NCBI RefSeq assembly: GCF_008831285.2
Contig: NC_045145.1
Coordinates: 2,458,723-2,522,722 of the forward strand
DNA length: 64,000 bases
Reading direction: 5' to 3'
Source of the DNA: Nymphaea colorata
Taxonomy: Eukaryota; Streptophyta; Magnoliopsida; Nymphaeales; Nymphaeaceae
In this document: positions 13,907 to 62,071 of the stretch, in pieces
Layout: the number at the start of each line of letters is the position of its first letter
Position numbering within the stretch: position 1 is the stretch's first letter
Translations under genes and position numbers: made by a program
The notes under the pieces: generated by a model
Seen by the model: only the letters and a program-made list of their open reading frames with translations
What the model was told of the DNA's origin: nothing
Database searches by the model: none

Positions 13907-14224
13907 ATGGAGAAAGAAGGGAGCTTGAGGTTGAGGCGAATTGCGATGAAGGAGGAGGAGGTGGAGCCATTGGAGTTCATAGAAGAGATGACGAGTCATG
14001 TAGATGAGGTGCAGAAGATGGTGCTGGATGACATCCTCTCCACCAATGCCAACGTTGAGTACCTACAGAGGCATGGGATATTCGGTAGAAGTATAGACAG
14101 GAAAACCTTCAAGTCCAAGCTGCCAATCATCGAATACGAAGACATCCTGCCCGGCATACAGAGGATAGCAAACGGTGATCCTTCACCCATTTTCTCTGCC
14201 CAACCCATCTCCGAGCTACTAACT

Positions 14225-14226
<2 letters not shown>
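13907..14226 (+). CDS. GH3 copy 1, exon 1
   Basis: 320 nt, from MEKEGSLRLRR to ISELLT plus two bases of a split Ser codon. The donor is AG|GTCTCT, where GT is immediately followed by a (CT)n microsatellite, so positions +3 to +6 do not match the usual GTAAGT. Only this GT joins correctly to exon 2 to give SSGTSGGE. Confidence 0.85.
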
Positions 14227-14263
<37 letters not shown>

Positions 14264-14673
14264 AATTGCACTTGGTTCACTTTTTGGAGGATGCTCTCCT
14301 CATAGTTATTAAGGAACATTGATTTAGGTTGAGGGCCTCATAGTTATTAAGGAACATTGGAGGGTTGCGATTCTTGAGCCTAATTGATTGGGTATTCCTC
14401 CCCACCCTCTTTTTCTCCATCACTCAAAATGTGTTTGTTTTACCACGTATCTTAGATCTGCGATAATATGAGATCACTAGGATATCAGATGTGTGGATTT
14501 AGAGTCGACCTCCCTCTAATGCTCCACATCCGACTTTAAATCTATGTTTTTTTACTTGTGCACGCCATAAAAACAAAAAAAGGAAAAGGTTTTCCTAAGA
14601 ATGCATTTTCAGTGCTTTGATATCGTTTGCGCTATAAATTGAGTTGGAACAAATGCTTGTGATTTAATCAAGG

Positions 14674-14712
<39 letters not shown>

Positions 14713-17700
14713 GGTTGTATCAAACAACTATGAACATTTTTCAAAATTTTTTTTTTAATATCTTAAGCGCAAATTTGCTTTTCCCGAATGTCACTATAGA
14801 CAAGGGATTAAAATTCAAATATCCTAATGTCATTTGGGTTCCATCAAAGTAAGGACCAAATTTTTGCCCATTACTAGAGATTACATAATCAAGTTTATGG
14901 AACTATCATTCCACCCTGAGGGGTCGGGGTCGGATGAGAACTTGGGAACCAATTTTTCTACTGTAGGTTCACTTCCAAGCTTCCACTCTCTGTCCATCTT
15001 TCCTACTGTTACCCTCTACCTCGATGCTTTGAAATCAAGCCTCCGCGTCGAGGCTTTGAAACGTGGTCAGCGCAGACGGCAGCCCTCGACATGGAGGGTT
15101 CCCTCGAGACAGAGGGTTTTTGCTCGAAGCAAGGGTTTTGAAATGCCTCTAAATTTTCTTTGAGACTTGGCAAAGGGTTTAAAATTTGTCTTACAAAAGC
15201 CAGAGTATCACTATATATGATAACTATATATGATGTAATGGAATCTTTTCTACACTTCAAAATAAATTAAATAAAGATCAATTAAAATTTAAAACAGAGG
15301 CTTTCTCTCATATCGTAGCGCAAATATTCATTAAAAAAAAGATCTGTTCCCTCCTCTGGAGTACATATTATTAATATTAATTTTTATTGAAACGTGAAGG
15401 GAAAAGGACAAAATAGAGAGAGCAAGAACGCGCGCGAGAGAGAGAATCACCGGCCGACGCGAACGACTTCTGGCAACACTGTTGTTTCCGTGTCACAAAA
15501 AACATAAACACAAAAAGTACAAAATTATTTATAAATCCACAGCAAAAGCTTTTGGGTTTCCTCCTTACAATACAAGCATCATGTTCGTCATAGGTTGACA
15601 GCAGCAACTCAGTTTCATGGTGAAGAAGAGAAGTGTGGAGAGAAGAAGCTGGTGAAAATGAATCCACCGCTTCTGAACCTCTTTTTCACACTTTTATTGG
15701 CAAATTGCATTTCGGCCTCAACAATTTGCACTCATTTTTCAAAATGACTATGAATCTTTTAACAAGATTACCTAGTTACCACATGTTTTTTTAGAAAATT
15801 CCAAATATCTGATTAACCTTTAACCGTTCCGATTTGGAGTTCTGGAAATGTGGACTTTATTTCCATTCCAACAATTTTTGGAATGAAGTTCTTTAATATT
15901 GTTCCAAATCCACAATTTCAAGGGATGAAACTATCCCTAAAAGATAGGGTCTAATGAAACCTAATCTCCATAAACCTGCAAAAAAATATATAGAACGCAG
16001 CATCACCATAATGTGTGTAATTAACATCAATTAAATATAATCAACAGCAATGTTGGGCATAACTGACAGTAAAACAACTTGTTCCTTTATAAACTAGAGA
16101 GTGAGTATAGTATGAAAAATTGAATATCGCTTCATTTTTTGGTATTTCCCAAGCCCATTCTTTCCTTTCTTTGAAGTATCATCAGAGAAATTAGACGCTT
16201 AATTTCTGTAGGTTTGATCACAAACCCTAGGGTGAAAGGAAATGGAAACCGAAACCCCTGTCTCACCTCTTTCTTCTTCTTCCTTCCCCAAACTATGTGC
16301 GCATTAGTGCATCATTGTAAATTCTCAGTTCAGTTGAATGTCGCATCTTTTGGCAGCTCTGGAACTTCAGGCGGTGAGCAGAAAATGATCCCGGTGACTG
16401 CCAACCATCATGAAGGGATTTATACAAACTTCGGATGGCTCATTCCCGCTGTCATGAACAAGTAACATATTAAGTTGGTACTTTTATTTTTTTCACTATG
16501 AAGTACATATCATCTATTTGGTGAAACGGGTCATCAAATTGACAAGTCTACAAGTCGACAAGCATAATTGTACTCTCACTACATTTATTCTTCGTTTTAA
16601 ATATTCATTTGAGTGAATTTCGAATTGATATGCAATATGGTGTTGGATTAAGCAATTTTATTCTGATCAAAAAACAAATTTTGGTTACTAAAGCAAGATA
16701 CATTAAGGTATTTGAATATTTGAACTTAAATTAAACAATGACGTCCTAATTATACGAGATCTTGTATGAAAACAAAACTTTAGTAATATTTGAAGCTCTT
16801 GCATAAATCAGATATGCATGTGTTATTCTATTTCAAGTAGACATTTTGAACCAATTTTAAACTATGAGAAACATCATGGTAGTACTTCATGTAATATATA
16901 ATGATCTCAAATTAAATGAAATTCATCAATGAATCAAACAACACCAGCAATGAATCTAAGGATGAACAATAATGAAAAGATAAAGAACTTTAATCATTAT
17001 ATTTTCACTTCAATAAGTACTGTTTTTACCTACAGTATTCTGCTAAATATGAGAATGATTACAAACAAGGGAATTAAATGTGAAAAAATCTGCGTTGAAC
17101 TAGAACTGCTGACAATGAAGCACCATATTCTGCTCATTTGTTGGTTATTGACCCTTGGGTTAAAAAGAACCTACTGCAGGTGCAAAGTAGTTTTGCGTGA
17201 CTCTGGAACAATGAGTCAGAGAGGAAAGGAAAAGCAAAAGATGGATAACATATCCAGTGTTTGCTGCAAAATTGATAACTGGAGCGTCAAAAGATTTGTT
17301 ATGTTCTTCAACTAAGATAAACAAGCGCACTTGTGCAATAACAAAATTAATGGTTTTTTTAGTAAAGTACACTTACACAAAGAATGTATAAACCATGCTG
17401 AAGTTTTACAAATATGTGGAAAAAAGTTCCTATAGCATGCAATATTGTAGAAAGGTTTATGTATCAACATTAATAAAAAAAGATGATGCATATGGACAAA
17501 AAACAAAAGAAGATCAAGGAAACATAATTGCACTGGTGGAGCTTCTTGGAAGGCTCCTTAACAACAAATATCACTTAAAAAACAGAACTTCTGTAAGAAC
17601 GAGACTAATAAAGAGAATAAATATGGAGTCAGTTATTGTTTTTATCCAGATTTTTTTTTCATGTGTTTTTGGGCTTACACAGGACAAAAGTTCATTGCAG

Positions 17701-19279
17701 CTTAAACCTTAACAGCATATTGATGATGGCTGGGTTCTTCTATGACAAACAGAAATATCTCAGGATTAGATAAAGGAAAGGTCCTATTCTTCTTCTTGAC
17801 TAGAAGAGAGACCAAGAGTCCAGCTGGAATTATCATGCGGACTGTACTTACAAGCTACTTTAAAAGTCCTCAATTTCTTTGCAAACACTATGCTAACATC
17901 AACTACACAAGCTCCATTCCCTCCATCCATTGCACAGATGTCTTCCAAAGCTTGTATGCTCAAATGCTTGCCGGCCTAGCTGACCGGCTTGCCATCTTTC
18001 AGATAGGTTCAACTTTTGCACCAATCTTTCGCCAGGCTATCCACTTCCTCAAGCGTCATTATCAGGAACTTGCAGCAGATATTGAGCATGGGACAGTGAA
18101 TCCACAAGTCACTGACACAGCAGTTAGAGCAGCATTAGGAAACGCTCTGACCCCTGACCCAGAAAATGCAGAACACGTAAGGAAGGAATGTTCAAGTGGG
18201 GTTTTTCAGGGTATCATAAGGAGGATTTGGCCAAATACAAAATTCTTGGATCTTATAGTGACAGGACCAATGGCACAATATATTCCAAGCTTGAATTTCT
18301 ACAGTGGGGACTTGCCTTTGACCAGCACTCCCTATGGATCATCAGAGTGCTTCTTTGGGTTAACCTTATGCCCTTTTACTAAGCCTGATGACATTGCCTA
18401 CACCATTATGCTAACATGGCCTACTTTGAGTTTTTGCCTGTCAAGCCTGCATATGATATTGGCTCACGTGGAGGATGGAAAAGAGTATGAGCTCATGGTG
18501 ACCACTTACTTTGGTAAAAGTTTATATAGCTTTATTCAGTCACATGGCTGTGTGTGTTTCTGCATTTTCCTCTACGTATTTATGTGCAAGATTGCCATCT
18601 AGTCTTGGGAACAACAATATTGAGAATTGATGGCTTTGATAAAACATGAATCATATGAGGGAGTGTCCTTTAGTTTCATCAAGATTTGACCTAACACACA
18701 TCCACACAAGAATACATGCATACGCACACACACATATATAATAACTCTGTCATTTCCTCCCTAATGTAACTACTAGCTGAGGCTTTTGGCTATCTTATTT
18801 TTAAAATGATAAATGTACATGCCCAGGTCCTTGTTCTTCTACCAGATACAGACGATTCAACTATGTTTCCTTTCCCGAAAATAGGATCTAGTGAGTATAG
18901 AGTATTTATAACAATTTTAGGTTGTTTATTATGAAATTTTACAAGAACTTGTATGCGATTCATAGTCAAGCAATCTAACATTTCTGTCGAAGACATTTAA
19001 TAGTGTAAGTGATAGAGAACCCTCATTGATTTACAGTCTTCTGTAAGCAAGTTAACAATATGGATATGATGCTTTAATTGTTCTGTCGTACAAAATATGT
19101 TAGGGCCAAGAGTTTGATTCCTAAAGCTAAGGATTTCATTAAATTGTAAAAATACCAAAGCAAGAGATTCACCATATGTAACATAAGTTATCCTATAGAT
19201 GGATCGAATGAAAATCATGCTAAAGCATGTCTGGATTTGCCTCGAACATAAATTATGAGACTGATCTCACTTTCTCTCT

Positions 19280-19321
<42 letters not shown>

Positions 19322-20538
19322 TTCAAAGGCAAAATACTGAGTAGCTGTTCCTATACATGACAGCCTATGAACCCCAACAGTGTTGACCAACCGTCTCTAA
19401 GTAGGATCACCATGTCATTGGAAAAAAGTGACTGCCGTCCATTGGTGGGTTTTTTTATGTTCTGTTTTATAAGAAGCACAAACTTAGATTAGTTAAGTTT
19501 GATATGTATGTATGTTTATGAAGAAGTGAAAGCATTATAGTTGTTCATTTTGCAAAAATGGTGAAGGAAGCAAGTGTTTTGGCTGAGCTAATTTGATCTA
19601 TGTTTTACCTTTATGAAAATACGCATTGATGAATCAATTAGAAGCTTAGATTTGAGAAAAAGTTTAATTGTGCTCACCTAGAAATGGCCCAACTTAAATG
19701 CGTTAGGCCAAGGATAGCCAGTTAAACTCAATTAGTGGTCTTCGTGCTGTAGTTTGACCACCAGCTTGGCAACCATGCCTTTCCCCATGACCAATGACAA
19801 ATTTGACAATTTGCATCTATTGGAACAACCACATGCCCTTTCTCAAAACATTCTCCATTGTTTTTTTACGATCCACTTTATAGATGTAGTTATTAATCAT
19901 ATCCAAGAGATGAACATATATAGATAGATGAAGCCATGCAAACAAGTGATTAATGTTTTTTCCTCATTGCTCACGAGATAATTTCTTTTCCTCATGCCAC
20001 ACTAGGTCTTTACCGATATAAGATTGGGGACGTACTAAGAGTTGCCAACTTCTACAACAAAGCTCCCCAATTCCACATTGTTGGTCGGAAAAATGTTTGC
20101 CTTAGCATTGATGTGGACAAAACGGAAGAGACAGAGTTACAGAAGGCCATAGCGGCATCTGAACTTGCTCACCTTAGGCCACATAATGCAAGAGTTCTTG
20201 ACTACAGTTGTTATACTGATGTTAAGACAATTCCAGGGCATTATGTTATTTACTGTGAACTTTCTCCAATCAATCATAGTGAGAACTCTTCATTCTCACG
20301 GGTAATCGACCAATGCTGTCTCACTATCGAACAGTCACTAAATTCTGTTTACAGAACCCTGAATGCCTATTACAAAACAATAGGACCATTGGAAATCAAG
20401 CTTGTGAAAGATGGTGCATTCCATGAAGTAATGGACCATGCTACAGCTAGAAGTGCTTCTGCTGCACATTTTATATTGGAGATATTGGAGGCGAGGGTTG
20501 TGTCAACTCATTTTAGTCCAGGTGTTCCAAGTTGGTAG
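13907..20538 (+). CDS. GH3-family acyl-acid amido synthetase, copy 1 (probably impaired)
   Basis: GH3 enzymes adenylate an acyl acid such as auxin or jasmonate and conjugate it to an amino acid in the cytosol. Four exons, 13907-14226, 16357-16461, 17753-18513 and 20006-20538, join in frame to 572 codons, against 598 for copy 2 and about 575-610 for the family. The ATP motif SSGTSGGE (107-114), YGSSECFFGL (336-345) and LYRYKIGDV are present. A 1-nt deletion after 18410 and a 41-nt deletion at 18459-18463 restore the frame but replace the conserved block that reads MPSVAYFEFLP in copy 2. A 30-nt deletion near 20468 removes the usual C-terminal segment with QYKPP and CVKS. The start was chosen at the ATG where similarity to copy 2 continues behind a TATA box. 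It is open but probably non-functional. The substrate cannot be told. Confidence 0.85.
14227..14262. repeat. (CT)n microsatellite at the intron 1 donor
   Basis: About 17 CT units start at the splice donor itself. Copy 2 has a shorter, interrupted version (48969-48996). Confidence 0.9.
14677..14710. repeat. (TA)n microsatellite in intron 1
   Basis: About 34 bp of TA repeats. In copy 2 the matching place has only a short TATATATAT run after the hAT-like insertion (50221-50229). Confidence 0.85.
16357..16461 (+). CDS. GH3 copy 1, exon 2
   Basis: 105 nt after acceptor TTTTGGCAG, encoding SGTSGGEQKMIPVTANHHEG and on to AVMN plus two bases of Lys. It carries the phosphate-binding motif of the adenylation site. 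The donor is AA|GTAACA. Length and phases are the same as in copy 2. Confidence 0.85.
17753..18513 (+). CDS. GH3 copy 1, exon 3 (with two deletions)
   Basis: 761 nt against 803 in copy 2. It encodes SGLDKGKVLFFF, the helical core with IIRRIWPNTK and YIPSLNFYSGDLPL, and YGSSECFFGL. From 18411 to 18463 the reading frame is shifted by the -1/-41 deletion pair, then returns at AHVEDGKEYE. It also differs from copy 2 at TGPMAQY (TGSMAQY in copy 2). The donor is TTG|GTAAAA. Confidence 0.85.
19284..19319. repeat. (TA)n microsatellite in intron 3 of copy 1
   Basis: About 36 bp of TA repeats preceded by CTCTCT. Copy 2 has a longer AC/TA compound tract at the matching place (54878-54945). Confidence 0.85.
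20006..20538 (+). CDS. GH3 copy 1, exon 4
   Basis: 533 nt after acceptor CACACTAG, from LYRYKIGDVLRVANFYNK through PGHYVIYCELSP to VPSW and TAG. It forms the smaller C-terminal domain. Ten codons are missing after ASAAH compared with copy 2, which reads QYKPPKCVKS there. Confidence 0.85.
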
Positions 20539-21178: not shown

Positions 21179-21183
21179 TTTAT
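21179..21183 (+). repeat. Target-site duplication TTTAT (left)
   Basis: TTTAT flanks the copia element on the left and is repeated at 25891-25895. Block 2 has a single uninterrupted ATATTTATAATAG at the matching place (about 62668). Confidence 0.75.
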
Positions 21184-21425
21184 TTTTAAATTCTTTTAGA
21201 AGTTGATTAGAGGTTTTCTGAAATTTTAGAAAGTTGAAAGGGTCCACTTTATTGTTATTTTATTTCTAGTGGACTAATTTTGTAAAGTTGTCAACACACC
21301 CTAATCACTTTTAATATGAGATTAGGGTTACGTGAATGAGAATCTGAATGTTTCCTCTCTTTCTCTCTCCCTCCCTCTTTCTCTCTCTCTCTCTCTCTTG
21401 TTCCTCTCTTCCTCCCTATTGAACA
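21184..21425 (+). repeat. Left LTR of the 21.2-kb copia element
   Basis: It aligns with 25670-25890. The first bases are TTTTAAATTC where the right LTR has TGTTAAATAC, so the usual TG start is mutated. It ends TTGAACA. A CT-rich tract near 21350-21402 accounts for its extra length. Confidence 0.88.
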
Positions 21426-21437
21426 TGGTATCAGAGC
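21426..21437 (+). other. Primer-binding site (initiator Met tRNA type)
   Basis: TGGTATCAGAGC follows the LTR without a gap. It is the standard first-strand primer site of plant copia elements. Confidence 0.88.
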
Positions 21438-21788
21438 AACGGGCCTAGGGCTGTAAGATCAAGGGTTCCACGCTCCTTCCTTCCTATCCTCCTTTCTCAT
21501 CTCTCCTGTCAAGCTAGGGTTTCACATCTGAAATTCCTCTTGATTACAAAAGAAGCAATCAGACTGGTTAGTGGAAAGGGGCTAATCACGTTTAACATGT
21601 AGAGACGTGATTAGCACCCTAGTGCGGCTGTTGAAGACGTTAAGCTGCAGAAAAAAAAAAATCTGATGTCGTTGTGTATGTTGTTGCCATGGAAGAAGAT
21701 CAGACCATCGACAACGGTATGCTGATCAAATCTGATGTCGTGTATGTTGCTGCCGTGGAAGAAGGTCCATTGACAAGGGTGTGCTGAT

Positions 21789-22547
21789 TTGCTCGGTTGG
21801 GTGCTGCCTCATGGATCTTCGCATTTAGAGTTGGAAGAAGAGCTTTGTAATATACGGCAACGTCATCAATATCTATCACAATATTTTGCTACGTTGACTG
21901 TTGCATATGAGAGGTTAAAAGCTCTTCGCCCATCATGCAAGCACTGCTATGCATCTCATTTTGAAACTGGTATGGTGGCAAAGTTTCTATCTGGGTTATC
22001 TTCAGAGTACTCTGTGGCAAAGTCTCAAATCCTCACAGGCAGTGATCTTCCAGACTTAGCAGACACATATAATAGGCTGAGTCGCCTTGCTGTCACTCTT
22101 TCTCAGTCTACACATAATACACGAGTCTTTGCACTTGTGACATCAGGAGGACGGGGCCATAGTTCTTTTACTAGCACGAGAGGACGTGGCACAGGCCATG
22201 GTGCAGGACGTGGCAGAATTTAGTTCTCTTATTGTGCCAAGCTAGGTCATTTGGAGGACCGATGTTGGGATAAGCATCCTCATCTTCGTTCTGGTGGGTC
22301 ATTAGGCCGTGGTGGAGGGAGAACCATTATAGGAAAGGGGCCTTCTTCGTCCAATGCAACTTCCTCACAGGCTACAGCTTCTATGGTTGAGTCCCCTACC
22401 TCTGCTCCATCATACTTACTCAACTTAAGTAAGAAGGAATATGATCTAGTTCTTGCTCAGAGGTCCTCCCCTGCATCTACTAGCACTGTTGCAGTAGAGT
22501 CGGCTTTCACTGTTGGTGCCCCTACAACTGACCCAGGTATGATATAG
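21789..22547 (+). pseudogene. copia gag remnant
   Basis: A truncated gag begins inside the family's middle part and runs through FLSGLSSEYSVAKSQIL and a Gly/Arg-rich stretch (GRGHSSFTSTRGRG). A stop (TAG at 22221) lies at the Zn-knuckle, and the first Cys of the CX2CX4HX4C knuckle is Phe (FSYCAKLGHLEDRC). The gag N-terminus is missing, so about the first half of gag is deleted. Confidence 0.82.
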
Positions 22548-23021
22548 ATGATCGACTCAGGAGCTTCTAGGCATTGTTGTAATCAGCCGCATATGTTTTT
22601 ATCATTAACCAGGTTCACTACACCACAACACGTCAGATTGGCTGATGGCAAATTATCACCTATTATGGGGTGCGGGATATCTACCTTACATTTTTGGGCA
22701 CCATTACACATGTGCTATATGCTCCTAAATTTCCTATTAATCTGTTATTTGTTAAGCAATTGGCTAGAGACTTACAACATAGAGTCATTTTTTTATCCTG
22801 GTTCATGTTCTTTTCAGGACTTACAAACTGGGAAGACGATTGGTAGCGGCCATGAATGGGAGGGACTCTACTTTCTGTCTATTCCAGTCAATGTTGCTGT
22901 ATCATCATTCACATCGAAGCCGACTCCTCTGCAGTGGCATCTCAGACTGGGTCATCCCTCTGTGTCCAAACTTCGTCGCATTCTTTCCAGATATTCCTGC
23001 ATCAGAGTCTTTCCTACGTGA
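22548..23021 (+). pseudogene. copia protease and gag-pre-integrase remnant
   Basis: It opens MIDSGASRHCC, the intact D-S-G protease active site, and continues to the gag-pre-integrase block with WHLRLGHPSVSKLRRI before a frameshift. The stop at the junction with gag (TAG at 22545) separates it from the preceding frame. Confidence 0.82.
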
Positions 23022-23800
23022 AGCATGCCAATTAGGCAAGCATACACGTAGTAGTTTTCCCTCGAGTTAGAGTCTTTTTAATCTATTTCATGTTGATGTT
23101 TGGGGTCCAAGTCGGGTTTCTTTTCGTTCGCGTTTTTGGTATTACCTTGTTTTGGTTGATGATTTTACCAGAGTCAGTTGAGTATTTTTGTTACGAGAAA
23201 GGTTTGAAGTCATTTGTATTCTTTAGAGATTTATCAAGGAAATAAAAACTCAGTTTGGTTCCATTGTAAAAAATATTCGCACTAATAATGCTCTTGAATT
23301 TAAATATTCTGTTATACTTCAATTTTATGCCAATCATGGGATGACCACAATATACATGTCCCCACACGTCCCAACAAAATGGTGTTGCAGAACGTAAACA
23401 TTGTCAGCTTATAAATGTGGCTCATACCCTCATGTTGCACACTCATATGCCCGCCTACTTTTGGGGTGATGCTATTCTTACAGCTTGCTATCTTACTAAC
23501 TGATTGCCCTCATCTGCCATTCAGGAATGCATCCCCATCCAATTACTATACCCAGATCGACCATTATTTCATATACCTCCCAAAGTATTTGGATGCACCT
23601 GCTTTGTACACATCTTAGGCCCAAATAGAAACAAACTTGCTGGCTAGACTATTAAATGTGTGTTCATTGGTTATTCTGCCAATCAAAAAGGGCATTGGTG
23701 CTTTGATCCCCATACCAAGAAAGAGATTGTCAGTGTGGATGTTACATTCTTTGAGTCTCGTCCATACGTTTCCACTTTGTGTTCTACCATGTTTGAGCAT
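22980..23800 (+). pseudogene. copia integrase remnant
   Basis: After frameshifts the pieces read HVDVWGPS and YLVLVDDFTRV, carrying the first core Asp, then FGSIVKNIRTNNALEF, where the second catalytic Asp is replaced by Asn (family RTDNA/GEF). Several stops follow, so it cannot encode an active integrase. Confidence 0.75.
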
Positions 23801-24129
23801 CCAGTTTCTATTCCTCTTCCTATTCCCCCAATTTCACTTGAGTCTTTGCCTTCTTCTCCACTGTCATCTTGTGATAGTTTCTGTGATCCTCCCCTTGTCT
23901 ATACTCGTCGTCAAAGTCCCTCTCCCAACCATCCACCAGCATCTTCTCATGAGGTAAGTTCCACTGATAAGATTGACCCAGGTAAAAATGATGAGTTCTC
24001 AGGAGATGATCTACGAATCGCCATTCGCAAGGGCCGACGACAGTGCACCATGCACCCGATCTCTAACTCTATTTCTATAAATCATTTGAGTACAAGTTTG
24101 GTGCAATTTGATCGAGCTATGTCTAGTCA

Positions 24130-25199
24130 CACTATCCCATCATCTCACCAGCAAGCCTTGTTAGATTCTCAATGGAAGCAAGCTATGCAGGAGGAAATGG
24201 ATCTTCTCTCTCGGGAGACTTGGGACTTGGTGGATCCCCCATTAGATTGTGATGTTGTTGGCTCGAAATGGATATTCACTATCAAATATTATTCTGATGG
24301 TTCCGTCGAGCGATTCAAAGTCCACCTTCTTGCAAAAGGTTATACATAGACTTAAGGGGTTGACTTCTTTGAGACGTTTTAACCAGTGGTAAGGTTAGGT
24401 ACTATTTGCCTAATTTATCTCTCTCACAGTTCAGCAGGATTGGCCTCTTTTCCAACTTGATGTGAAAAATGCATTTCTGTATGGTGATCTTTCTGAAACG
24501 GTTTATATACAACAACCACCTGGTTTTGAAAGTTAGGGGGAGTGTTCCAATGTATGCAAACTCAAAAAGGCTATCTATGGACTTAAACAAAGTCCTTGCG
24601 CATGGTTTCATAAACTTAGTGAGATTCTATCTAAGTGTGGTTTTCAAAGATCTCAACTTGATCATTCATTGTTTATCAAGTGCAGCACAGATGGTATAGT
24701 GATATTGATTGTATATATTGATGACATTGTTATCACAAGGGAAAGTAATCAAAAGATGGCTAAGACAAAGAAGTTTCTACAGAAACACTTTGTCACAAAA
24801 GACCTTGGTCAACTCCATTATTTTCTTGGTATTGAAGTGGCTCGTAGTAGTAAAGGGGTTGTGATGTCTCAGAGGAAATATGTTCTTGATCTTCTGCAGT
24901 AAAAAAGATTATTGAGGGCCAAACCTACCACACTTCGTATGAATCCCCGAATTCATATTTATGATGATGAATCAGAGACTTTTGACTCTCGATCTTACAG
25001 ATCTCTGATCGGAAAACTATTATATTTGACAATCGCTCATCCAGACATTAGCTTTGCTGTGAATAAGCTAAGTCAATTCATGCAATCCTCAGAAAGTTCA
25101 TTCGGAGACTACCTTAATGGTGGTAAAATACTTGAAATCAGCCCCGGGAAAGGGGTTATGATTCAAAAGGGGAGAAAGTGTGGGCATAGTAGCATATAG
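24130..25199 (+). pseudogene. copia reverse transcriptase remnant
   Basis: The blocks [65 protein letters not shown] and the catalytic YIDDIVIT at about 24714 are present in order. They are broken by stops, for instance at 24347, 24380 and 24535. The downstream part keeps FVTKDLGQLHYFLGIEVA and LIGKLLYLTIAHPDISFAV. Confidence 0.85.
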
Positions 25200-25660
25200 T
25201 GATGCTGGTTATGCATGGTCAGTAGATGACAGAAGATCTACTACAGGTTTTTACATCTTTGTTGGAGGGAATCTTATTTCTTGGAGAAAGAAGAAACAAA
25301 ATGTGGTTGCTAGATCTAGTGCTAAGTTTGAGTATAGAGCTATGGCCCAAACTTCAGCTGAAATGTCTTGGATCAAATCGGTGCTTATAGAATTGGGGAT
25401 TTTAGTGAACCTTTCAATGAAGATGTATTGCGATAAAAGAGCAACAACCTATATTGCAAATAACCGTGTTTTTCATGAGAGGACAAAACACATTGAAGTA
25501 GCTTGTCATTATGTTCGGGACTTGGTATAAGGAGTCATTAGCACTGTTCATGTCTCTTCTGAAGATCAAGCAGCTGACATGTTTACTAAGGCGCTTCCCA
25601 TCAACGATTTCTTGAGAGGATGTAACAAGCTGAGCATGATTGATAGCTATGCTCCAGCTT
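25195..25660 (+). pseudogene. copia RNase H remnant
   Basis: It encodes AYSDAGYAWSVDDRRSTTGF, then NLISWRKKKQNVVARSSA and RTKHIEVACHYVRD, the full set of copia RNase H blocks. After a stop at 25528 it continues as SSEDQAADMFTKALP, the usual C-terminus just before the purine tract. Confidence 0.85.
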
Positions 25661-25669
25661 GAGGGGGGT
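25658..25669 (+). other. Polypurine tract
   Basis: GCTTGAGGGGGGT lies directly before the right LTR, at the place of the second-strand primer. Confidence 0.75.
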
Positions 25670-25890
25670 TGTTAAATACTTTTAGAAGTTGATTAGAGGT
25701 TTTCTAAAATTTTAGAAAGTTGGAAGGGTCCACTTTATTGTTATCTTATTTCTTGTGGACTAATTTTGTAAAGTTGTCAACACAACCTAATCTCTTTTAA
25801 TATGAGATTTGGGTTACGTGAATGAGAATCTGAATGTTTTCTCTCTCTCTCTCTCTCTTTCTTGTTCCTCTCTTCCTCCCATATTGAACA
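25670..25890 (+). repeat. Right LTR of the 21.2-kb copia element
   Basis: It begins TGTTAAATACTTTTAGAAG and ends TTGAACA, followed by the TTTAT target duplication at 25891-25895. Confidence 0.9.
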
Positions 25891-39189: not shown

Positions 39190-39770
39190 CAAAAGTTTTT
39201 GCATAGACCTATGAAGATATGCCCAGGTTTAGACCCCTAGTTGGTTGAACATTGTTTGCCCCTTAAGTACCAATTGCAAGCCACTTAAAAAAATTGTCCA
39301 AGTTTGATGCTCAACTATAAGGGCCCGTAAAAGATGGATTACAGAACCCACTAAAGGCAAATTTATTTGTGCCATCGATTACCTCGAATGGTTGGTTAAT
39401 ATTATGGTGGTTCTCAAGAAAAATGGCAAATCTAGGTTGTGTATTGACTTTCAAAACCTGAATAAAGCCACACCAAAAGATGATTACCCACTTCCAAACA
39501 TTGATTTATTGGTAGATTGTACCATGGGCCATGCCATGTTCTCTTTTATGGATAGATATTCGAGTTACAACCAAATCAAATTAAAAGTCAATGATCAACC
39601 TAAGACTGCTTTTACCACCCGTGGGGCACTTTCTATTACATGGTAAAGCCATTTGGGTTAAAGAATGCTAAAACAACTTATCAAAGAGTTATGACCGCTA
39701 TCTTCTGCAACCAAATGCACAAAATCATGGATGCATATATCGATGACATATTAATTGAATCTAAGGAAAA
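39190..39770 (+). pseudogene. Ty3/gypsy reverse transcriptase, truncated
   Basis: It starts with CPGLDP and VEHCLPLK, then FICAIDYLEWLVNIMVVLKK, then SRLCIDFQNLNKATPKDDYP, FSFMDRYSSYNQIK and the catalytic YIDDILIESKE at about 39735-39768. Frame changes occur at 39240, near 39390 and at 39645. Homology ends abruptly at the fusion with the copia fragment. Confidence 0.8.
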
Positions 39771-40497
39771 ACCTTGAAGGACATGACCCCTTATGAACTA
39801 CTTCATAAAATTCCTTCGAGTTATAACCATATTAGAGTGTTCGGGTGTACTTGCTGCCCCTTGCTCGTTTCCAACAGGAAAAATAAAATGCAAACAAAGT
39901 GGAGGCCATGTGTATTTATTGACTACGGTCATCAACATAAAATTATACATTTGTTTTGACTCTATTGACAAAAGAACTTACATTTCTAGACATGTTACTT
40001 TCCATGATAACAGTTTTCTCTTTCAAGGATCGAGAGCTCCTCACAGTGAGCAAGAAATATCTACATGGATTCAAAAACAAACATCAATGGATTCTAAAAT
40101 AAGAGACAATCAGCCTCAAAAGGTATCACCTCCTTTATTTCAAGTATTGCCTAGTATTGTTTCAAATTGTGAAACAAGCCGCAGTCGGCCTCCATAGGCC
40201 AGCAAGATAACCACAGGGAAGAAAAATCAAAATAGTCCTTACATTTCTCCATCTGGACTTGAACCATCTTCAGTGCATGAATATTCTCAACCAGATGCTA
40301 CTAGTCAACAACTGGTCATTGACATTATCCTTCACGCTAGAGATCAAAAGCAATGTACTCACATTATGGTGACGAGATCAATGGATGGCACTAAAATCCC
40401 AAAAGTATATTATGCCAAGAAAGAATTAGACAAACATGAGCCTAGAAATCATCTTGAAGTTCTTGATCACCCAAAATGGTTCTACGCCATGACTGAG
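39771..40497 (+). mobile_element. copia fragment (integrase C-terminus to RT start)
   Basis: It encodes DMTPYELLHKIPSSYNHIRV and FGCTCCPLLVS of the integrase C-terminal region, then YISRHVTFHDNSFLF. After a Pro/Ser/Gln-rich linker it reads KVYYAKKELDKHEPRNHLEV and PKWFYAMTE, the start of RT. It corresponds to about 3730-4470 on the minus strand and is clearly the same family. Both ends are abrupt, so it is a rearranged piece and not an insertion with termini. Confidence 0.82.
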
Positions 40498-41577
40498 TTC
40501 GAACTACGGTGTTGGTGCGACTCTCTCGAGCAGGGTCTTATAGTTCGAGCTAGACTAACTTGGCTCATGAACACACCTATGGCGGGGTAGTGGGGACCTA
40601 CTGCCACAGTTTCCTAGATCTCCTCCCTCATGGTGGGGAGATCAGATCTCCAAACTGCTGACTCCACCTCTTCCCATATTCGTGGATCTAAGATTCACAG
40701 TTTATTATTCCACACAGATCTCCATAGGACAGTGAGGCAATCTCAAACATGATGATATATATATATATGCGCACACATACATACATACTTGAAGTTGCTT
40801 ATTTTTCAAATAAATACATTTTACTCAGATTTATATATATACGTTTTCTTGAAGAAAATTAAGAAGAGAAAAAAGGAAAATTACGTCTTAATGGTGAAAT
40901 GCGGTCCCGTGTAAGACATTAGCACATGGAGGGGCCTTGCTCTCATGATTTTGTAGTTAGAGATAAAATTGTATGCATATTTGTCAGTGATAAAATTTTC
41001 AGCATATATTTAGCAATTCTTTATTATAGAAACAAACAAAAGCTATTAGTAAAAGTAAAAATAAGCAATCTTACCGATTCGTACCATATACAAAAGACAA
41101 AGCTTTATGTACATACATGGGGAATTATTTTGCATTCAAAAGAAAAAAAAAGCACAGGTACATCTTTGTTCAGCATTTTGGTACAATCAGAAATTAGTTT
41201 CACGTGAAGGTTGATTGTGACGTTTTTTGAATTAATTGTCCATATCTTGTATGATGTACACAGGCATTGTCATTGATAAAGTTGCAGACATGACTGGCCC
41301 ATATTTGCCTCGAAGGGATCCAATGGTAACAGTGAACTTCTAAAATCATCCATCCTATGTGGGAAATACTTTTCAAAACTAACTTATAATCATTGGGCGT
41401 TGTTACCAACTAGCTTTAAGCTGTAATAAATTCAAATTATACCATCAAATCAATGTTTCATAAATGTAGAAGATCTCCAATGTGATTTGAAATTTTTAAA
41501 TCACAAAATCTAAATCATAAAATAGACCAGCCGGACAGCATCAGATCATCTCACAATGCAACAACTTTATCACCAAT

Positions 41578-41845
41578 ACTTCACAACAACAAATATCCCT
41601 TTTAGGAGTGGCTGAAAGCTGTTCCTAAAAGCACATGTAGTAGTTCCTAAAAGTAATTAGCAACGGTCAAATGGTTGTTCCTAAACCATTCCTCGACGGT
41701 TCCTAATTACTTTTAGGATTGGTTGTGACTTTTCCTTTTCAAGACTCAGTAGGACCAGTTTTCCATGTGTATCCCCAAAAGTTCAAAACTAGTTATATAT
41801 TAAGGTCCATAAAGGAACAGTCACGCAGGCCGTTCCTAATAGTTG
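41578..41845. mobile_element. CACTA-like terminal fragment, inverted copy
   Basis: Here the TTCACAACAACAAATATCCC terminus lies on the left, followed by GTTCCTAA motifs. It is the inverted counterpart of 10046-10275. Confidence 0.4.
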
Positions 41846-41852
41846 ATACACC

Positions 41853-41855
<3 letters not shown>

Positions 41856-41916
<61 letters not shown>

Positions 41917-41984
41917 ATATGTATACATATATATATATATTGTGTATGTGTGTGTATGTGTGTGTGTGGAGAGAGATAGAGTCA
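41856..41984. repeat. Compound (TA)n-(TG)n-(GA)n microsatellite
   Basis: TA repeats with CATATA interruptions pass into GTGTGT and then GAGAGA. This is the longest version of the compound microsatellite in the three duplicated copies. Confidence 0.88.
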
Positions 41985-42845
41985 TTAAACAAGAATATTT
42001 AAATTTATTGATCTCATATATAATCTTTATATGATTAAGAAATAGATTACAATTAATAAAGGTATGCAAAAAGAATAAAGAAAAATTAGCTTTATCACTA
42101 GCTCCATCTACATCATTTCCTCTTTTTTTCTGCCCACACTGCCCTACTTATGAGAGCCTCAACACATGAAACATTTTCATTGTCAGTGTCCCTAAAAAAA
42201 AAAGGTTCTGATAGAAGAAAAAACTATGCGACCAAAAACATTCAAACACCAAAAAATTAGACACCAAGAAATTACTTTGATAACAAAAAGGTTTAAAGAC
42301 CAAGAAGCTGCTTAAGATGAAGAAGGTTTTACACCCAAGTGCCAGATCCAATGCAACGTGTGTATATGCAAATATATGAATAAATGATGCTGATGTCATT
42401 TGTCAACAATTTAAAGACAAAATCATAGTCCTTATCACAAAATGACAAGCACAACTTCAATAAACCAACAAAGACTTTGGTAGTAACCACAACACAATAA
42501 AAAGGAAAATGCAGTGATAAAATTTGTCTACGAAGACAAATTGAAAAACAGAATTCGGATAGCTAACTAAAATTATAAAGGAATATACAATCTTGCAATG
42601 AAGGTTCAGCTTGGAGGTAAAAGATTGTGCAATCTTGTGCGTTAACTCTGTGGTTTCAGTCCCCATGAAAGATTGATAATATAATTTCTTTACTAACTAA
42701 TCAAACTTTCTTATATATCCCCATGGAAATCAGGTTGTCAATAATTAAATGCAAATGAACAAGTGTAACCCTTATCTATTCCTGAACGAATCTTGAATTC
42801 GGTCACCTTAACCATATGCCCAACAAAACCATCAAGCTGATCTAA

Positions 42846-44683: not shown

Positions 44684-45408
44684 TGGGTATATGGTTAAGG
44701 TGATCGGATTCGAGATTCGTTCAAGAATGGATAAGGGTTACACTTGATCATTTGTATTTCATTATTGACAACCTGAGTACCATGGGGATACATAAGAAAG
44801 TTTGATTAGTTAGTAAAGAAATTCTATTATCAACCTTTCATGAGGACTGAAACCACATAGTTAATGCACAAGATCACACAATCTTTTACCTCCAAGCTGA
44901 ATCTTCGTTGCACGATTGTATATTCCTTTATAATTTCAGTTAGCTAACTGAATTTTTTTTTTCAATTTGTCTTCATAGATAAATTTTATCACTGCATTTT
45001 CCTTTTTTTTTATGTTGTGGTTACTACCAAAGACTTTGTTGGTTTATTGTAGTTGTTCATGTCATTTTGTGATAAGGACTATGATTTTGTATTTAAATTG
45101 TTGACAAATGACATTGCCATCATTTATTCATATATTTGCATATACACATGTTGCATTGTAGTTTTTTCTTCTATCAGAACCTCTTTTTTTAGGGACATTG
45201 ACAATGAAAATGTTTCATGTGTTGAGACTCTCATAAGTAGGGAAGTGTGGGCAGAAGAAAAGAGTAAATGATGTAGATGGAGCTAGTGATAAAGCTAATT
45301 TTTCTTTATTCTTTTTGTATACCTTTATTAATTGTAATCTATTTCTTAATCATATAAAGTTTATATATGAGATCAATAAATTTAAATATTCCTGTTTAAT
45401 GACTCTGT

Positions 45409-45465
45409 CTCTCTCCACGCACACACATACACATACAATATATATATACATATATATATGTGTAT
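45409..45465. repeat. Compound microsatellite, block 2 copy
   Basis: CTCTCTCC, then ACACAC, then TATATA runs in the same order as at 9987-10039. Confidence 0.8.
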
Positions 45466-45471
45466 ATACAA

Positions 45472-48648: not shown

Positions 48649-48968
48649 ATGGAAAAAGAAGGGAGATTGAGGTTGAGGCGAATTGCAATGAAGGAGGAGG
48701 AGGTGGGGCCATTGGAGTTCATAGAAGAGATGACGAGTCATGTAGATGAGGTGCAGCAGATGGTGCTGGACGACATCCTTTCCACCAACGCCAATGCTGA
48801 GTACCTACAGAGGCATGGGATATTCGGTGGAAGTATAGACAGGAAAACCTTCAAGTCCAAGCTGCCAATCATCGAATACGAAGACATCCTGCCCGACATA
48901 CAGAGGATTGCAAACGGTGATCATTCACCCATTTTTTCTGCCCAACCCATCTCCGAGTTACTAATCAG
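48649..48968 (+). CDS. GH3 copy 2, exon 1
   Basis: 320 nt, MEKEGRLRLRRIAMKEEE to ISELLI plus two bases of Ser. The donor is AG|GTCTCT into a CT microsatellite, the same unusual donor as in copy 1. Confidence 0.88.
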
Positions 48969-51900: not shown

Positions 51901-54898
51901 TCCCCAAACTATGTGCGCATTAGTGCATCATTGTAAATTCTCAGTTCAGTTGATTGTCCCTTCTTTTGGCAGCTCCGGAACTTCAGGCGGTGAGCAGAAA
52001 ATGATCCCGGTGATTGCCAACCATCATGAAGGGATTTATACAATCTTCGGATGGCTCATTCCCACAGTCATGAACAAGTAACAGATTAAGTTGGCATTTT
52101 TATTCTCCCTTTGAAGTACATATCATTTATTTGGTGAATGAAATGGGTCATCAACCTCTTAGTCTACAAGCAAAATTGTAGCCTCACTACTTTTTTCTAC
52201 GTTTTAAAAATTCATTTGAGTGAATTTCAAATTGATAAGCAATATGCTGTTGGATTAACCAATTTCATTCTGATCAAAAAACAACTTTTGATGACTAAAG
52301 TAAGATACATTAAGGTATTTGAATATTTGGACCTAAATTAAACAATGTCGTCCTAACTATACGAGATCTTGTATGAAAACAAAAGTTTAGTAACATTTGA
52401 CGTTCTTGCATAAATTAAATATGCATGGATTATTCTATTTCAGGTAGACATTTTGAATCAATTTTAAACTATGTGAAACATCATGGTACTAATTCATGTA
52501 TTATATAATGATCTCAAATTAAATGAAATTCATCATTGAATCAAACAACACCAACAATGAATCTAAGGATGATCATAAATAAAAAGAGAAAGAACTTTAG
52601 TCACTATATTTTCACTTCAATAAGTATTGTTATTCCCGACAGTATTCTGCTAAATATGAGAATGATCACAAACCAGGGAATTGAATGAGAAAAATTCTGT
52701 TTTGAACTAGAACTGCTGACAATGAAGCACATTATTCTGCTCATTTCTTGGTTATTGACCCTTGGGTTAGAAGGAACCTACTGCAAGTGCAAGGAGGAAA
52801 ACAACCGAAAAATAAATGAATGCTAATGAGGAGACAATACCTCTCATTATGCACCTTGCCTCCAAAGGCCACAAAGTAGTTTTGCCTGACTCTGGAACAA
52901 TGAGCCAGAGAGGAAAGGAAAAGCAAATGGTGGATTTGCTGCAAAATTAATAACTGGAGTGTCAAAAGATTTGTTATGTTCTTCAAATAAGATAAACAAA
53001 TTAATGTTGTTTTTTAGTCACTTATACAAAGAATGTATAAAGTAGTTGAAAAAAAACATGTTTTTTTTTAAAAAAAATGAAATAAATTGAATTGCCGTAT
53101 AAAACGAAAAAAATGCATTTAAAAAAAACATTAAGAAAACACGTTTTTAACGCTTTTTTTGCATTTCTTTTTCACTTTTTCCATTGTTGGTACTGTTTTT
53201 ATCCACATTTTTTCTTCATGTATTTTTGGGTTTACACAGGACAAAAGTTCATTACAGCTTAAACCTTTACAGCATATTGATAATGGCCAGGTTCTTCTAT
53301 GACCAACAGGAATATGTCAGGATTAGATAAAGGAAAAGTCCTATTCTTCTTCTCTACTAGAACAGAGACCAAGAGTCCCGCTGGAATTATCATGCGGCCT
53401 GCACTTACAAGCTACTATAAAAGTCCTCAATTTCTTTGCAAACACTATGCTAACATCAACTACACCAGCTCCATCCCCTCCATCCATTGCACAGATGTCT
53501 TCCAAAGCTTGTATGCTCAAATGCTTGCTGGCCTGGCTGACCGGCTTGCTATCTTTCAGATAGGTTCAACTTTTGCACCAAGCTTTCTCCAGGCTATCCG
53601 CTTCCTCAAGCATCACTATCAAGAACTTGCCGTAGATATTGAGCATGGGACAGTGAATCCACAAGTGACTGACACAGCAGTTAGAGCAGCATTAGGAAAC
53701 GCTCTAACCCCTGACCCAGAAAATGCGGAACACATAAGGAAGGAATGTTCAAGTGGGGATTTTCAGGGTATCATAAGGAGGATTTGGCCAAATACAAAAT
53801 TCCTGAATCTTGTAGTGACAGGATCAATGGCACAGTATATTCCAAGCTTGAACTTCTACAGTGGAGACTTGCCTTTGGTCAGCACTGCCTATGGATCATC
53901 AGAGTGCTTCTTTGGGCTAAACTTATACCCTTTTACTAAGCCTGAGGACATTGCCTACACCATTATGCCTAGCGTGGCCTACTTTGAGTTTTTGCCTATC
54001 AAGCCTGCAGATGATATTGGCCAGATAAGTGCAATGCAAGTGCTGGACCCTGTGGATTTGGCTCACGTGGAGGACGGTAAAGAGTATGAGATCATTGTGA
54101 CCACTTACTCTGGTAAAATTTTATATAGCTTTCTTCAGTCACATGGCTGTGTGTCATGCATTTTCCTCTATGTATTTATGTGCAAAGTGCATTGCCATCT
54201 AGTCTTGGGGCCAACAATATCGAGAATTGGTGGTTTTCATAAAACATGAATCATATGAGAGAGTGTCCTTTAGTCTCAGCAAGATTTGACCAGACAAACA
54301 TCCACACAGAAACACAAGCACAAAGACACATATAATAACTCTATCATGACCTCCCTAATGTACCCACTAGCTGAGGCTTTTGGCTGTTTTGCTTTTAAAA
54401 TTTTAAATGTACATGCCCAGGCCATTGTTCTTCTGCCAGGTGCAGACAATTTGACTATGTTTTCTTTCCGGAAAACAGGATTTGTTGAGTATAAAGTATT
54501 TATAACAATTTTTGGCTGTTTATTATGAAATTTTACAAGATCTTTTATGCGCTTCATGGTCAAGCAATCTAACTTTTCTCTCGGAAACATTTAATGGTGA
54601 AAGTGATAGAGAACCCTCATTGATTTACAATCTTCTTTAAGCAAGTTAACAGTATGGATATAATGCTTTAATTGTTCTGTCGTATAAAATATGTTAGGGC
54701 CAAGAGTTTGATTCCTAAAGCCAAGGTTTTCATTAAATTATAAAAATACCAAAGCAAGAGGTCCACCATATCTAACATAAGTTATGCTATAGATGGATCA
54801 GATGAAAATCATGTTAAAGCATGTCTGGATTTGCCTCGAACATAAATTATGAGACTGATCTCTCCTTCTCTCTCTTCACACACACACACAACTGTGTA

Positions 54899-54947
<49 letters not shown>

Positions 54948-60900: not shown

Positions 60901-62071
60901 AGCAATTATGAGCTCCTAAGGTTTTATGTAATGTCTGAATGTATAAAGACATATTTGGCCCAAGTGGGAGATTGTAAGATCATGTGGTGGGCCGGCATAT
61001 GTCTATGAGGAATTTCAGACATTATGACTGTCTTAACGTAAATATCCGCTTAAGTGATTGCATTTTGGGATATTACGTCATTTTAGATGGTATGGGGTAA
61101 TTTTGAAATGTATAGATACCAGTACGTAATTACGGACTCTTTGATGGGTTGAATCCGTAATTGTCCTTATTATAAAATGGTAGTGGTCCCTGGGGTCGTG
61201 CAAGGGTTGCCTGAAACATTGGTTTCTAGGGTTTTCCTCTTCCCCATCTGAGAGAGGCCTCAAGCGAGCCGCACGTACCCTGGAAGACCCTGCTGCGATC
61301 TTCCCGTGCACCAGATCAGATGGATTCAGGTACGCTTCCGCTTCAGTTTAAGGTTTCGTTTATTTCAATGATTTAGCATGAGCATGATGCTGTTTTAGGG
61401 TATATACGTTTGGTTTTGTATATGCGTTATGGGGAGAAATCCCAACATTAATGTCTTTTCCTCATTGCTCACGAGATGAATTTCTTTTCCTCATCACACT
61501 AGGTCTTTACCGATATAAGATTGGGGACGTACTAAGAGTTGCCAAATTCTACAACAAAGCTCCCCAATTCCACATTGTTGGTCGAAAAAATGTTTGCCTT
61601 AGCATTGATATAGACAAAACAGAAGAGACAAAGTTACAGAAGGCCATAACGGCAGCTGAACTGGCTCACCTTAGGCCACATAATGCAAGAGTTCTTGACT
61701 ACAGTTGCTATACTGATGTTAAGACAATTCCAGGGCATTATGTTATTTACTGTGAACTTTCTCCAATCAATCACAGTGAGAACTCTTCATTCCCACGGGT
61801 AATCGACCAATGCTGTCTCACTATCGAACGGTCACTAAATTCTGTTTACAGGTCTCTGCGTGCCTACGACAAAACAATAGGACCATTGGAGATCAAGCTT
61901 GTGAAAGGTGGCACATTCCATGAAGTAATGGACCATGCTATAGCTAGAGGTGCTTCTGCTACACAATACAAGCCTCCTAAGTGTGTCAAATCTACTTGGA
62001 TGCTGGAGATATTGGAGGCGAGGGTTGTGTCAACTCATTTTAGTCCAGGTGTTCCAACTTGGTCGCCTTGA
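48649..62071 (+). CDS. GH3-family acyl-acid amido synthetase, copy 2 (complete)
   Basis: This is an acyl-acid amido synthetase of the ANL adenylate-forming superfamily, known to conjugate hormones such as auxin or jasmonate to amino acids. Four exons, 48649-48968, 51973-52077, 53310-54112 and 61503-62071, join in frame to 598 residues, a normal family length. SSGTSGGE (107-114) is the ATP phosphate-binding motif. YGSSECFFGLN (336-346), MPSVAYFEFLP (361-371) and LYRYKIGDV (411-419) are the other conserved blocks. PGHYVIYCEL and QYKPPKCVKS lie in the C-terminal domain. YGSSE recalls the JAR1-like group, while the rest also fits auxin-type enzymes, so the subfamily and substrate are left open. 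Intron 1 (3.0 kb) holds an hAT-like element and a MITE. Intron 3 (7.4 kb) holds a copia element. All splice sites are intact, so a functional gene is likely if the long intron is spliced. Confidence 0.9.
48969..48996. repeat. (CT)n microsatellite at the intron 1 donor, copy 2
   Basis: About 14 CT units with TTT interruptions. It is shorter than in copy 1. Confidence 0.9.
49623..49630 (+). repeat. 8-bp target-site duplication ATTTAATC (left)
   Basis: ATTTAATC precedes the hAT-like element and is repeated at 50199-50206. Intron 1 of copy 1 has one GATTTAATCAAGG at the matching place (about 14662). Confidence 0.88.
49631..50198. mobile_element. hAT-like non-autonomous element in GH3 copy 2 intron 1
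   Basis: A 568-bp insertion starts TAGGGGTGGGCATCGGGC and ends with its near-complement (..GCCCGATGCCCAGGCCTA). The terminal inverted repeats share TGGGCATCGGGCCGGGC. With 8-bp target duplications, this is the structure of a hAT element. The inside has no transposase and is filled by a GGGAGA-type minisatellite with GC-rich shoulders. The empty site in copy 1 proves it is an insertion. Confidence 0.88.
49736..50125. repeat. Purine (GGGAGA) minisatellite inside the hAT-like element
   Basis: About 390 bp are almost only G and A on the plus strand, built from GGGAGAGGGAGA units with ACGGGAA and AGCAGAGA variants, in an irregular higher-order pattern. Long open frames on both strands here result from low complexity. 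Confidence 0.9.
51224..51649. mobile_element. Harbinger-like MITE in GH3 copy 2 intron 1
   Basis: The element proper is 51227-51646 (420 bp), flanked by TAA on both sides (51224-51226 and 51647-51649). The left end reads GCCCTGTTTGGATGGAGGG. The right end is its near-complement CCCTCCATCCAAACAAAGC, and both pass into purine/pyrimidine-rich arms. A 3-bp TAA duplication and this GTTTGGATGG end are usual for PIF/Harbinger-type MITEs. Copy 1 has the unoccupied AATTAAATATAATC at about 16032. Confidence 0.82.
51973..52077 (+). CDS. GH3 copy 2, exon 2
   Basis: 105 nt after TTTTGGCAG, encoding SGTSGGEQKMIPVIANHHEG to TVMN plus two bases of Lys. The donor is AA|GTAACA. Confidence 0.88.
53310..54112 (+). 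CDS. GH3 copy 2, exon 3
   Basis: 803 nt, from MSGLDKGKVLFFF through HCTDVFQSLYAQML, TGSMAQYIPSLNFYSGDLPL, YGSSECFFGLN, MPSVAYFEFLP and HVEDGKEYEI to the split Gly before LYRYK. The acceptor is ACCAACAG and the donor TCTG|GTAAAA. The TTGGC repeats at 54017-54021 and 54058-54062 are the sites between which copy 1 lost 41 nt. Confidence 0.9.
54878..54945. repeat. (AC)n/(TA)n microsatellite in intron 3, copy 2
   Basis: A CACACA run, a short unique piece, and about 44 bp of TA repeats. Confidence 0.85.
55511..55515 (+). repeat. Target-site duplication TTAAT (left)
   Basis: TTAAT precedes the copia left LTR and is repeated at 61448-61452. Copy 1 has the single uninterrupted GATTAATG near 19949. 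Confidence 0.92.
55516..55990 (+). repeat. Left LTR (475 bp)
   Basis: It begins TGTAAGATCATGTGG and ends CCCAACA. A possible TATA-like TTATTATAAAATGG lies at about 55710. It is the same length as the right LTR, with ten substitutions and no indels between them. Confidence 0.95.
55993..56004 (+). other. Primer-binding site (initiator Met tRNA type)
   Basis: TGGTATCAGAGC two bases after the left LTR. Confidence 0.9.
56098..57130. other. GC-rich leader of the copia element
   Basis: Between the primer-binding site and gag lies a leader of about 1.9 kb. Its first part, from an A-tract at about 56098-56116 to another at about 56799-56822, is strongly GC-rich, unlike the rest of the element. It includes a perfect 31-bp unit repeated at 56601-56631 and 56632-56662. 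From about 56915 to 57130 it carries an array of spaced AACCGGTTC/AACCGATTC-like motifs. No gag-like coding is present here. Confidence 0.8.
57926..59203 (+). pseudogene. copia gag with Zn-knuckle and start of pol
   Basis: It starts MISANLSTVPELNGSNFKDW, the usual gag N-terminus, and reads through NKGNIQEHIMEMSHLASKL and SLPPQFGKFKVSYN to a Zn-knuckle CFFCKDEGHMKKDC (CX2CX4HX4C). The protease follows with LWVDSVATTHIS, where the family active site is D-S-G. A stop at 58229-58231 (after EKRFA) splits gag, and a TGA at 59201 ends the frame before the gag-pre-integrase block HWRLGHISEKRI. It is inactive as it stands. Confidence 0.85.
59204..60580 (+). pseudogene. copia pol remnant (integrase lost; RT and RNase H decayed)
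   Basis: The gag-pre-integrase block (HWRLGHISEKRI, then FNVCTECIKGK) ends at about 59325. Integrase and the first RT blocks are absent, so a large internal deletion lies near 59330-59560. RT resumes with KSIYGLKQV, LYVDDILLASND and KDLGCASFVLGIQIFRDRS, then VVGSLMYVQVCTRLDIAF. RNase H pieces include YSDSDFAGCQDN, and the C-terminus ADPLTKGLTHKVFHEHV lies just before the right LTR. Many stops and frameshifts are present. Confidence 0.82.
60961..60972 (+). other. Polypurine tract
   Basis: CAAGTGGGAGAT directly before the right LTR. Confidence 0.8.
60973..61447 (+). repeat. Right LTR (475 bp)
   Basis: Same ends as the left LTR (TGTAAG..CCCAACA), followed by the TTAAT target duplication at 61448-61452. 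Only 55 bp separate its end from the acceptor of GH3 exon 4. Confidence 0.95.
61503..62071 (+). CDS. GH3 copy 2, exon 4
   Basis: 569 nt after acceptor ATCACACTAG, from LYRYKIGDVLRVAKFYNK through VLDYSCYTDVKTIPGHYVIY, then ATQYKPPKCVKSTWML and VVSTHFSPGVPTWSP with TGA. It keeps the C-terminal segment that copy 1 lost. The retrotransposon ends 55 bp upstream, leaving the pyrimidine tract (TCTTTTCCTC) intact. Confidence 0.9.

Follow-up and report, generated by a model that had tools for sequence, protein, structure and literature searches.

Among the closest described systems to the locus reported here are lost gene duplicates in maize and compensated frameshifts in transcripts. In the parts of the maize study drawn on here (PMC2893956), one duplicate had short exonic deletions whose limits are marked by a direct repeat in the undeleted sequence, and such repeats, 3-24 bp long, were present on the flanks of 10 of the 16 exonic gaps in lost duplicates. 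The portions of a transcript survey that we used (PMC1449882) describe 159 compensated-frameshift cases among pseudo-mRNA predictions, in which a change of frame was followed by a stop-free recovery. We observed both of these patterns in one copy of a duplicated plant GH3 gene, hereafter copy 1. Within what these sources describe, the maize case stems from tetraploidy, whereas the GH3 copies stem from a local duplication, and in copy 1 a 1-nt loss masks what the 41-nt loss does to the frame; similarly, the cases of PMC1449882 are transcripts, whereas copy 1 is known from DNA alone and carries a third lesion. With a probability of about 0.88, we consider copy 1, a tandem (segmental) duplicate of a gene for a diverged plant GH3 acyl acid amido synthetase, to have become a pseudogene recently. 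It shares with duplicated pseudogenes a less damaged paralogue (copy 2), a retained intron-exon structure and probably disabling lesions that lie in the derived copy.

Judged by its genes and retroelements, the window, i.e. the whole stretch of 64,000 nucleotides that was analysed, appears to be plant nuclear DNA. It contains a segmental duplication with an offset of ~35.5 kb and one four-exon GH3 gene per copy. The genes were rebuilt by splice sites as 13907-20538 for copy 1 (572 aa) and 48649-62071 for copy 2 (598 aa), with GT-AG boundaries at all six introns and spliced frames that remain open to the terminal stop in both copies. The exons are as follows:

13907..14226, + strand: GH3 copy 1 exon 1, with the ATG start and a GT donor, open in the spliced coding sequence
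16357..16461, + strand: GH3 copy 1 exon 2, with an AG acceptor and a GT donor; the SSGTSGGE motif straddles exons 1 and 2
17753..18513, + strand: GH3 copy 1 exon 3, carrying the 1-nt and 41-nt losses
20006..20538, + strand: GH3 copy 1 exon 4, carrying a 30-nt loss; its stop lies two codons before the copy 2 stop
48649..48968, + strand: GH3 copy 2 exon 1, from splice-site reconstruction
51973..52077, + strand: GH3 copy 2 exon 2, from splice-site reconstruction
53310..54112, + strand: GH3 copy 2 exon 3, including MPSVAYFEFLP (residues 361-371)
61503..62071, + strand: GH3 copy 2 exon 4, including QYKPPKCV (Y is residue 565)

The duplicated region also includes an inverted partial third copy of the gene-upstream segment at 39930-47000, a reverse match to 7.3-11.6 kb of copy 1, which adjoins the direct copy at ~44670 in an inverted-repeat junction. 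Intron 1 of copy 2 contains a purine/pyrimidine low-complexity tract (49593-50229) that was not found in the aligned part of copy 1, and the open reading frames of 106-200 aa that this tract yields on both strands are probably spurious.

A sequence-only reading had described the absence from copy 1 of 1 nt just after 18410 and of 41 nt at 18459-18463, the latter between two TTGGC repeats present in copy 2. Global pairwise alignment of the exon 3 regions agreed with this in each sequence detail, with these two losses as the only internal gaps, while no gap between the copies was observed in the alignments of exons 1 and 2. The features of exon 3 are given below:

18410..18411, + strand: site of the 1-nt loss in copy 1, a single C at 18411 against CC at 53968-53969 in copy 2
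18411..18458, + strand: out-of-frame block of copy 1, 48 nt with 4 substitutions relative to the copy 2 DNA, read in the other frame
18459..18463, + strand: junction of the 41-nt loss in copy 1, with one TTGGC kept
54017..54062, + strand: TTGGC direct repeat of copy 2 (54017-54021 and 54058-54062, 41 nt apart), bounding the stretch absent from copy 1

The two losses sum to 42 nt and the frame of copy 1 is kept, as the sequence-only reading had also claimed. Copy 2 reads M-PSVAYFEFLPIKPADDIGQISAMQVLDPVD-LAHVED across this region while copy 1 reads M-LTWPTLSFCLSSLHMI-LAHVED, so that residues 362-391 of copy 2 (30 residues, with PSVAYFEFLP) are replaced in copy 1 by 16 residues (362-377) which, as stated before, are unrelated to MPSVAYFEFLP. 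Because only 4 substitutions separate the copies in the 48 nt between the gaps, the DNA itself is homologous and the frame alone differs. When put singly into the frame of copy 2, the losses brought stops at codon 381 (1 nt) and codon 385 (41 nt), in either case within 20 codons. In copy 2 no stop occurs in the shifted frame over codons 362-380, a range that covers all 16 codons read out of frame in copy 1, and two losses would sum to a multiple of three by chance about one time in three; selection is therefore not needed to explain the reopening of the frame. The proposal that the 41-nt junction fits microhomology-mediated deletion or slippage gained weight from a count of all distinct possible deletions of 20-80 nt in copy 2 exon 3, where a junction homology of at least 5 nt was found for 47 of 34,180 (0.14%), and the TTGGC repeat is therefore unlikely to be accidental. 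Such a repeat would fit end joining or short-repeat slippage better than a blunt random loss.

The global alignment of exon 4 revealed a third lesion, absent from the sequence-only reading, an in-frame loss of 30 nt from copy 1. Copy 2 reads ...ASATQYKPPKCVKSTWMLEIL... at this site and copy 1 reads ...ASAAHFILEIL..., with the following positions:

20468..20469, + strand: junction of the 30-nt loss in copy 1, which removes the QYKPPKCV motif in frame
61966..61995, + strand: the 30 nt present in copy 2 and absent from copy 1

Four of the nine bases just past the junction differ between the copies, and possibly this was a 30-nt deletion accompanied by a few filler bases.

The proteins of both copies were aligned with four GH3 sequences from the PDB, namely GH3-1 (4b2g), GH3.8 (7dk8), GH3.6 (7vka) and GH3.5 (5kod), which we take to come from grape, rice and Arabidopsis (VvGH3-1, OsGH3.8 and AtGH3.5/3.6). 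These four were chosen from ten PDB sequences found, leaving out 9fwd (GH3.6 again), GH3.15, GH3.12 and JAR1; all ten, found with E values of at most 0.001, have names that mark them as amido synthetases, ligases or conjugating enzymes of the GH3 or JAR1 type. The best PDB match scored 683.5 bits for copy 2 and 588.8 bits for copy 1. Each of the four aligned sequences contains YFEFLP and QYK[VT]PRCV, and copy 2 is like them (its second motif being QYKPPKCV), while copy 1 is not. Because the four solved GH3s agree with copy 2, the changes arose in copy 1, and the earlier assignment of the deletions to copy 1 thus held against the PDB sequences. The description of the MPSVAYFEFLP region as a conserved GH3 block was likewise borne out, both by the presence of YFEFLP in all four and by the Pfam GH3_M domain, which matches profile positions 1-75 in copy 2 (91.3 bits) and only positions 30-75 of 75 in copy 1 (65.8 bits).

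Against the Pfam curated cut-off of 23.6 bits for each of GH3, GH3_M and GH3_C, copy 2 passes for all three with its domains in order (312.1, 91.3 and 108.4 bits). Copy 1 passes all three as well, with an N-terminal GH3 domain at 306.1 bits and a GH3_C match over positions 2-107 at 75.5 bits (2-117 in copy 2), while neither a complete GH3_M with YFEFLP nor the QYKxPRCV of the C-terminal domain was found in it. The three nucleotide-binding motifs named for JAR1 in the part of PMC12493201 that we used (SSGTSxG, YGSSE, GLYRYRxGD) are all present in copy 2, and copy 1 keeps them as SSGTSGGE at residue 107, YGSSE at 336 and GLYRYKIGD at 396. Of the 68 aligned differences between the copies, 24 are sites where only copy 2 matches a PDB sequence and 12 are sites where only copy 1 does; without those that fall in the damaged stretches (9 and 3, respectively), 15 against 9 remain, a weak excess. 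Columns invariant in the four PDB GH3s number 349, of which 236 are retained in copy 2 and 218 in copy 1, with 106 lost in both. Adenylating enzymes typically have a catalytic lysine in the C-terminal domain, and the lysine of QYKxPRCV is presumably this residue. The portions of PMC11253546 and PMC8539013 drawn on here do not name residue roles for YFEFLP or QYKxPRCV. An AlphaFold model of copy 2 exon 3 alone had a mean pLDDT of 32.8 and was put aside. From the conservation of YFEFLP and QYKxPRCV, we infer that the lesions of copy 1 are disabling, and a protein that has lost a stretch of the central domain together with the C-terminal motif should be impaired in both folding and catalysis. The suggestion that copy 1 is probably not a working enzyme is in line with these comparisons, and the loss of QYKxPxCV with the accompanying drop of GH3_C from 108.4 to 75.5 bits makes it stronger.

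Both copies resemble the auxin-group GH3s (VvGH3-1, OsGH3.8, AtGH3.5/3.6) in aligning over nearly their full length, in having GH3, GH3_M and GH3_C, and in the three motifs, while copy 1 is unlike them in being without YFEFLP and QYKxPxCV. Identity to the four is 47-53% for both copies, compared with 76.8% between 4b2g and 7dk8. In the part of PMC10747189 that we used, Arg130 of OsGH3.8 is described as crucial for substrate preference, and its change to Leu shifts the preference from IAA to benzoate. The corresponding position is Ile128 in both copies (in exon 2, 16357-16461 and 51973-52077), with the OsGH3.8 numbering checked through Ser341 and Glu342, which were located in YASSE of the 7dk8 sequence. 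Ile128 in place of Arg130 suggests another acyl substrate. By its domains and motifs copy 2 would be classed as a GH3 acyl acid amido synthetase, yet not as a classical auxin GH3, and because both copies have diverged from the auxin group to this extent, we treat copy 2 as only a putative working enzyme. The conserved block would have been lost from a gene that was already unusual before the loss.

Over comparable codons the two copies gave a Ks of 0.135, a Ka of 0.042 and a Ka/Ks of 0.314 (bootstrap 0.207-0.473), the ratio being an average over both lineages. Noncoding divergence within the gene was 9.6%, with 74 indels per 4,378 aligned bases (a count that leaves out gaps between BLAST pieces), while coding divergence was 6.0% in 1,711 aligned bases with three indels counted on the global exon alignments, all of them on copy 1. 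About 15 coding indels would be expected in one lineage that had been neutral since the duplication, and the probability of three or fewer is then 0.0002; leaving single-base noncoding indels out of the rate lowers the expectation to 6.6 (P = 0.11), although one of the three observed events is itself single-base. The fraction of time spent neutral was estimated as 0.20 from the three indels (95% 0.04-0.58) and as 0.17-0.48 from a Ka/Ks mixture with assumed constrained values of 0.25-0.10, both being rough estimates given repeat slippage among the noncoding indels and the absence of outgroup DNA. With a Ka/Ks of 0.31 and so few coding indels, copy 1 probably evolved under constraint initially and escaped from it late, within the last 17-48% of the time since duplication by the point estimates. 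In simulations (400 each), the probability of no new stop was 0.65 and 0.50 at neutral fractions of 0.2 and 0.3, respectively, and 0.12 under neutrality throughout. The missing stops are therefore no argument against a recent death, nor do they alone exclude an early one.

Some observations speak against reading copy 1 as a pseudogene. Its frame is open over 572 codons and its splice sites are intact, as they would also be under selection, the Ka/Ks of the pair is clearly below 1, and at sites outside the damage where the four PDB sequences decide, copy 1 falls only slightly behind copy 2. The open frame, the intact splice sites and the Ka/Ks of the pair, combined with an N-terminal Pfam GH3 score near that of copy 2 and the retention of SSGTSGGE, YGSSE and GLYRYKIGD, would also suit a retained pseudoenzyme that has lost conjugation and kept its acyl-binding N-terminal domain with SSGTS, YGSSE and YRxGD, and that would sequester ligand, serve as a decoy or work as a partner of copy 2. 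Yet a recent loss predicts identical values, the altered block arose by accident from the other reading frame, and among the invariant columns outside the damage 10 are kept by copy 2 alone and 6 by copy 1 alone, so that copy 1 has changed slightly more. Titles on a GH3 pseudoenzyme, or on a dead GH3 duplicate with an open frame, were absent from the matches listed in a limited look at the literature, and overall we regard a retained pseudoenzyme as very unlikely. An expressed one, produced by the compensated frameshift, which binds acyl acid and nucleotide through its N-terminal domain, leaves the reaction unfinished and buffers hormone or regulates the neighbouring copy, is likewise very unlikely.

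It is also highly improbable that copy 1 is a working gene in which sequencing or assembly errors account for at least one of the losses. Reads commonly drop one base from a pair such as CC, but the repeat-bounded junction of the 41-nt gap and the 30-nt gap followed by 4 substitutions in 9 bases are poorly explained by read errors. Putting one error right would leave copy 1 damaged, since each exon 3 loss by itself disrupts the copy 2 frame, and even if both exon 3 losses were unreal the QYKxPxCV of exon 4 would still be gone; all three losses would have to be errors for copy 1 to work. The reverse polarity, with copy 1 ancestral and sequence gained by copy 2, is scarcely conceivable and was rejected, with YFEFLP and QYKxP[RK]CV common to copy 2 and all four aligned solved GH3s and nothing found in its favour.

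For copy 1 as a recently pseudogenised duplicate, a possible course of events can be outlined. Copy 1 would have remained under selection for much of the time after duplication, with constraint lost late. The 41-nt loss may have occurred through end joining or slippage between the two TTGGC repeats, and the 1-nt loss through slippage in CC. Provided that copy 1 was still like copy 2 in this region, whichever exon 3 loss came first would have cut the protein short, and the second would have reopened the frame by chance without bringing back the conserved block. The start, the splice sites and the remaining frame were kept, and the protein of copy 1, if made, would probably not fold or catalyse properly.

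As a pseudogenised duplicate, copy 1 provides a worked case of a dead duplicate with an open frame, an ordinary step in duplicate loss. Annotation based on open reading frames or on family membership would score two GH3 genes at this locus. Dead duplicates of this kind are ordinary, yet easily missed by gene finders, and family counts and dosage arguments for plant GH3 genes hinge on spotting them.

Several retroelements were observed in the window. Intron 3 of copy 2 contains a Ty1/copia-type LTR retrotransposon at 55516-61447, with LTRs 97.9% identical over 475 nt, a 5-bp target duplication (TTAAT) and a copia gag domain in an open reading frame at 58232-59203, while copy 1 has the matching empty site near 19950. 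This insertion adds 5.9 kb to the intron, with a possible effect on how the better copy is expressed. A degenerate copia-type element (21183-25873) with an RVT_2 match at 24537-24899 and flanking repeats of ~92% identity lies directly downstream of copy 1, and is missing at the corresponding place of copy 2. An RVT_1 fragment at 39308-39643 scored 29.1 bits, just under the cut-off of 29.6, and is probably a decayed retroelement.
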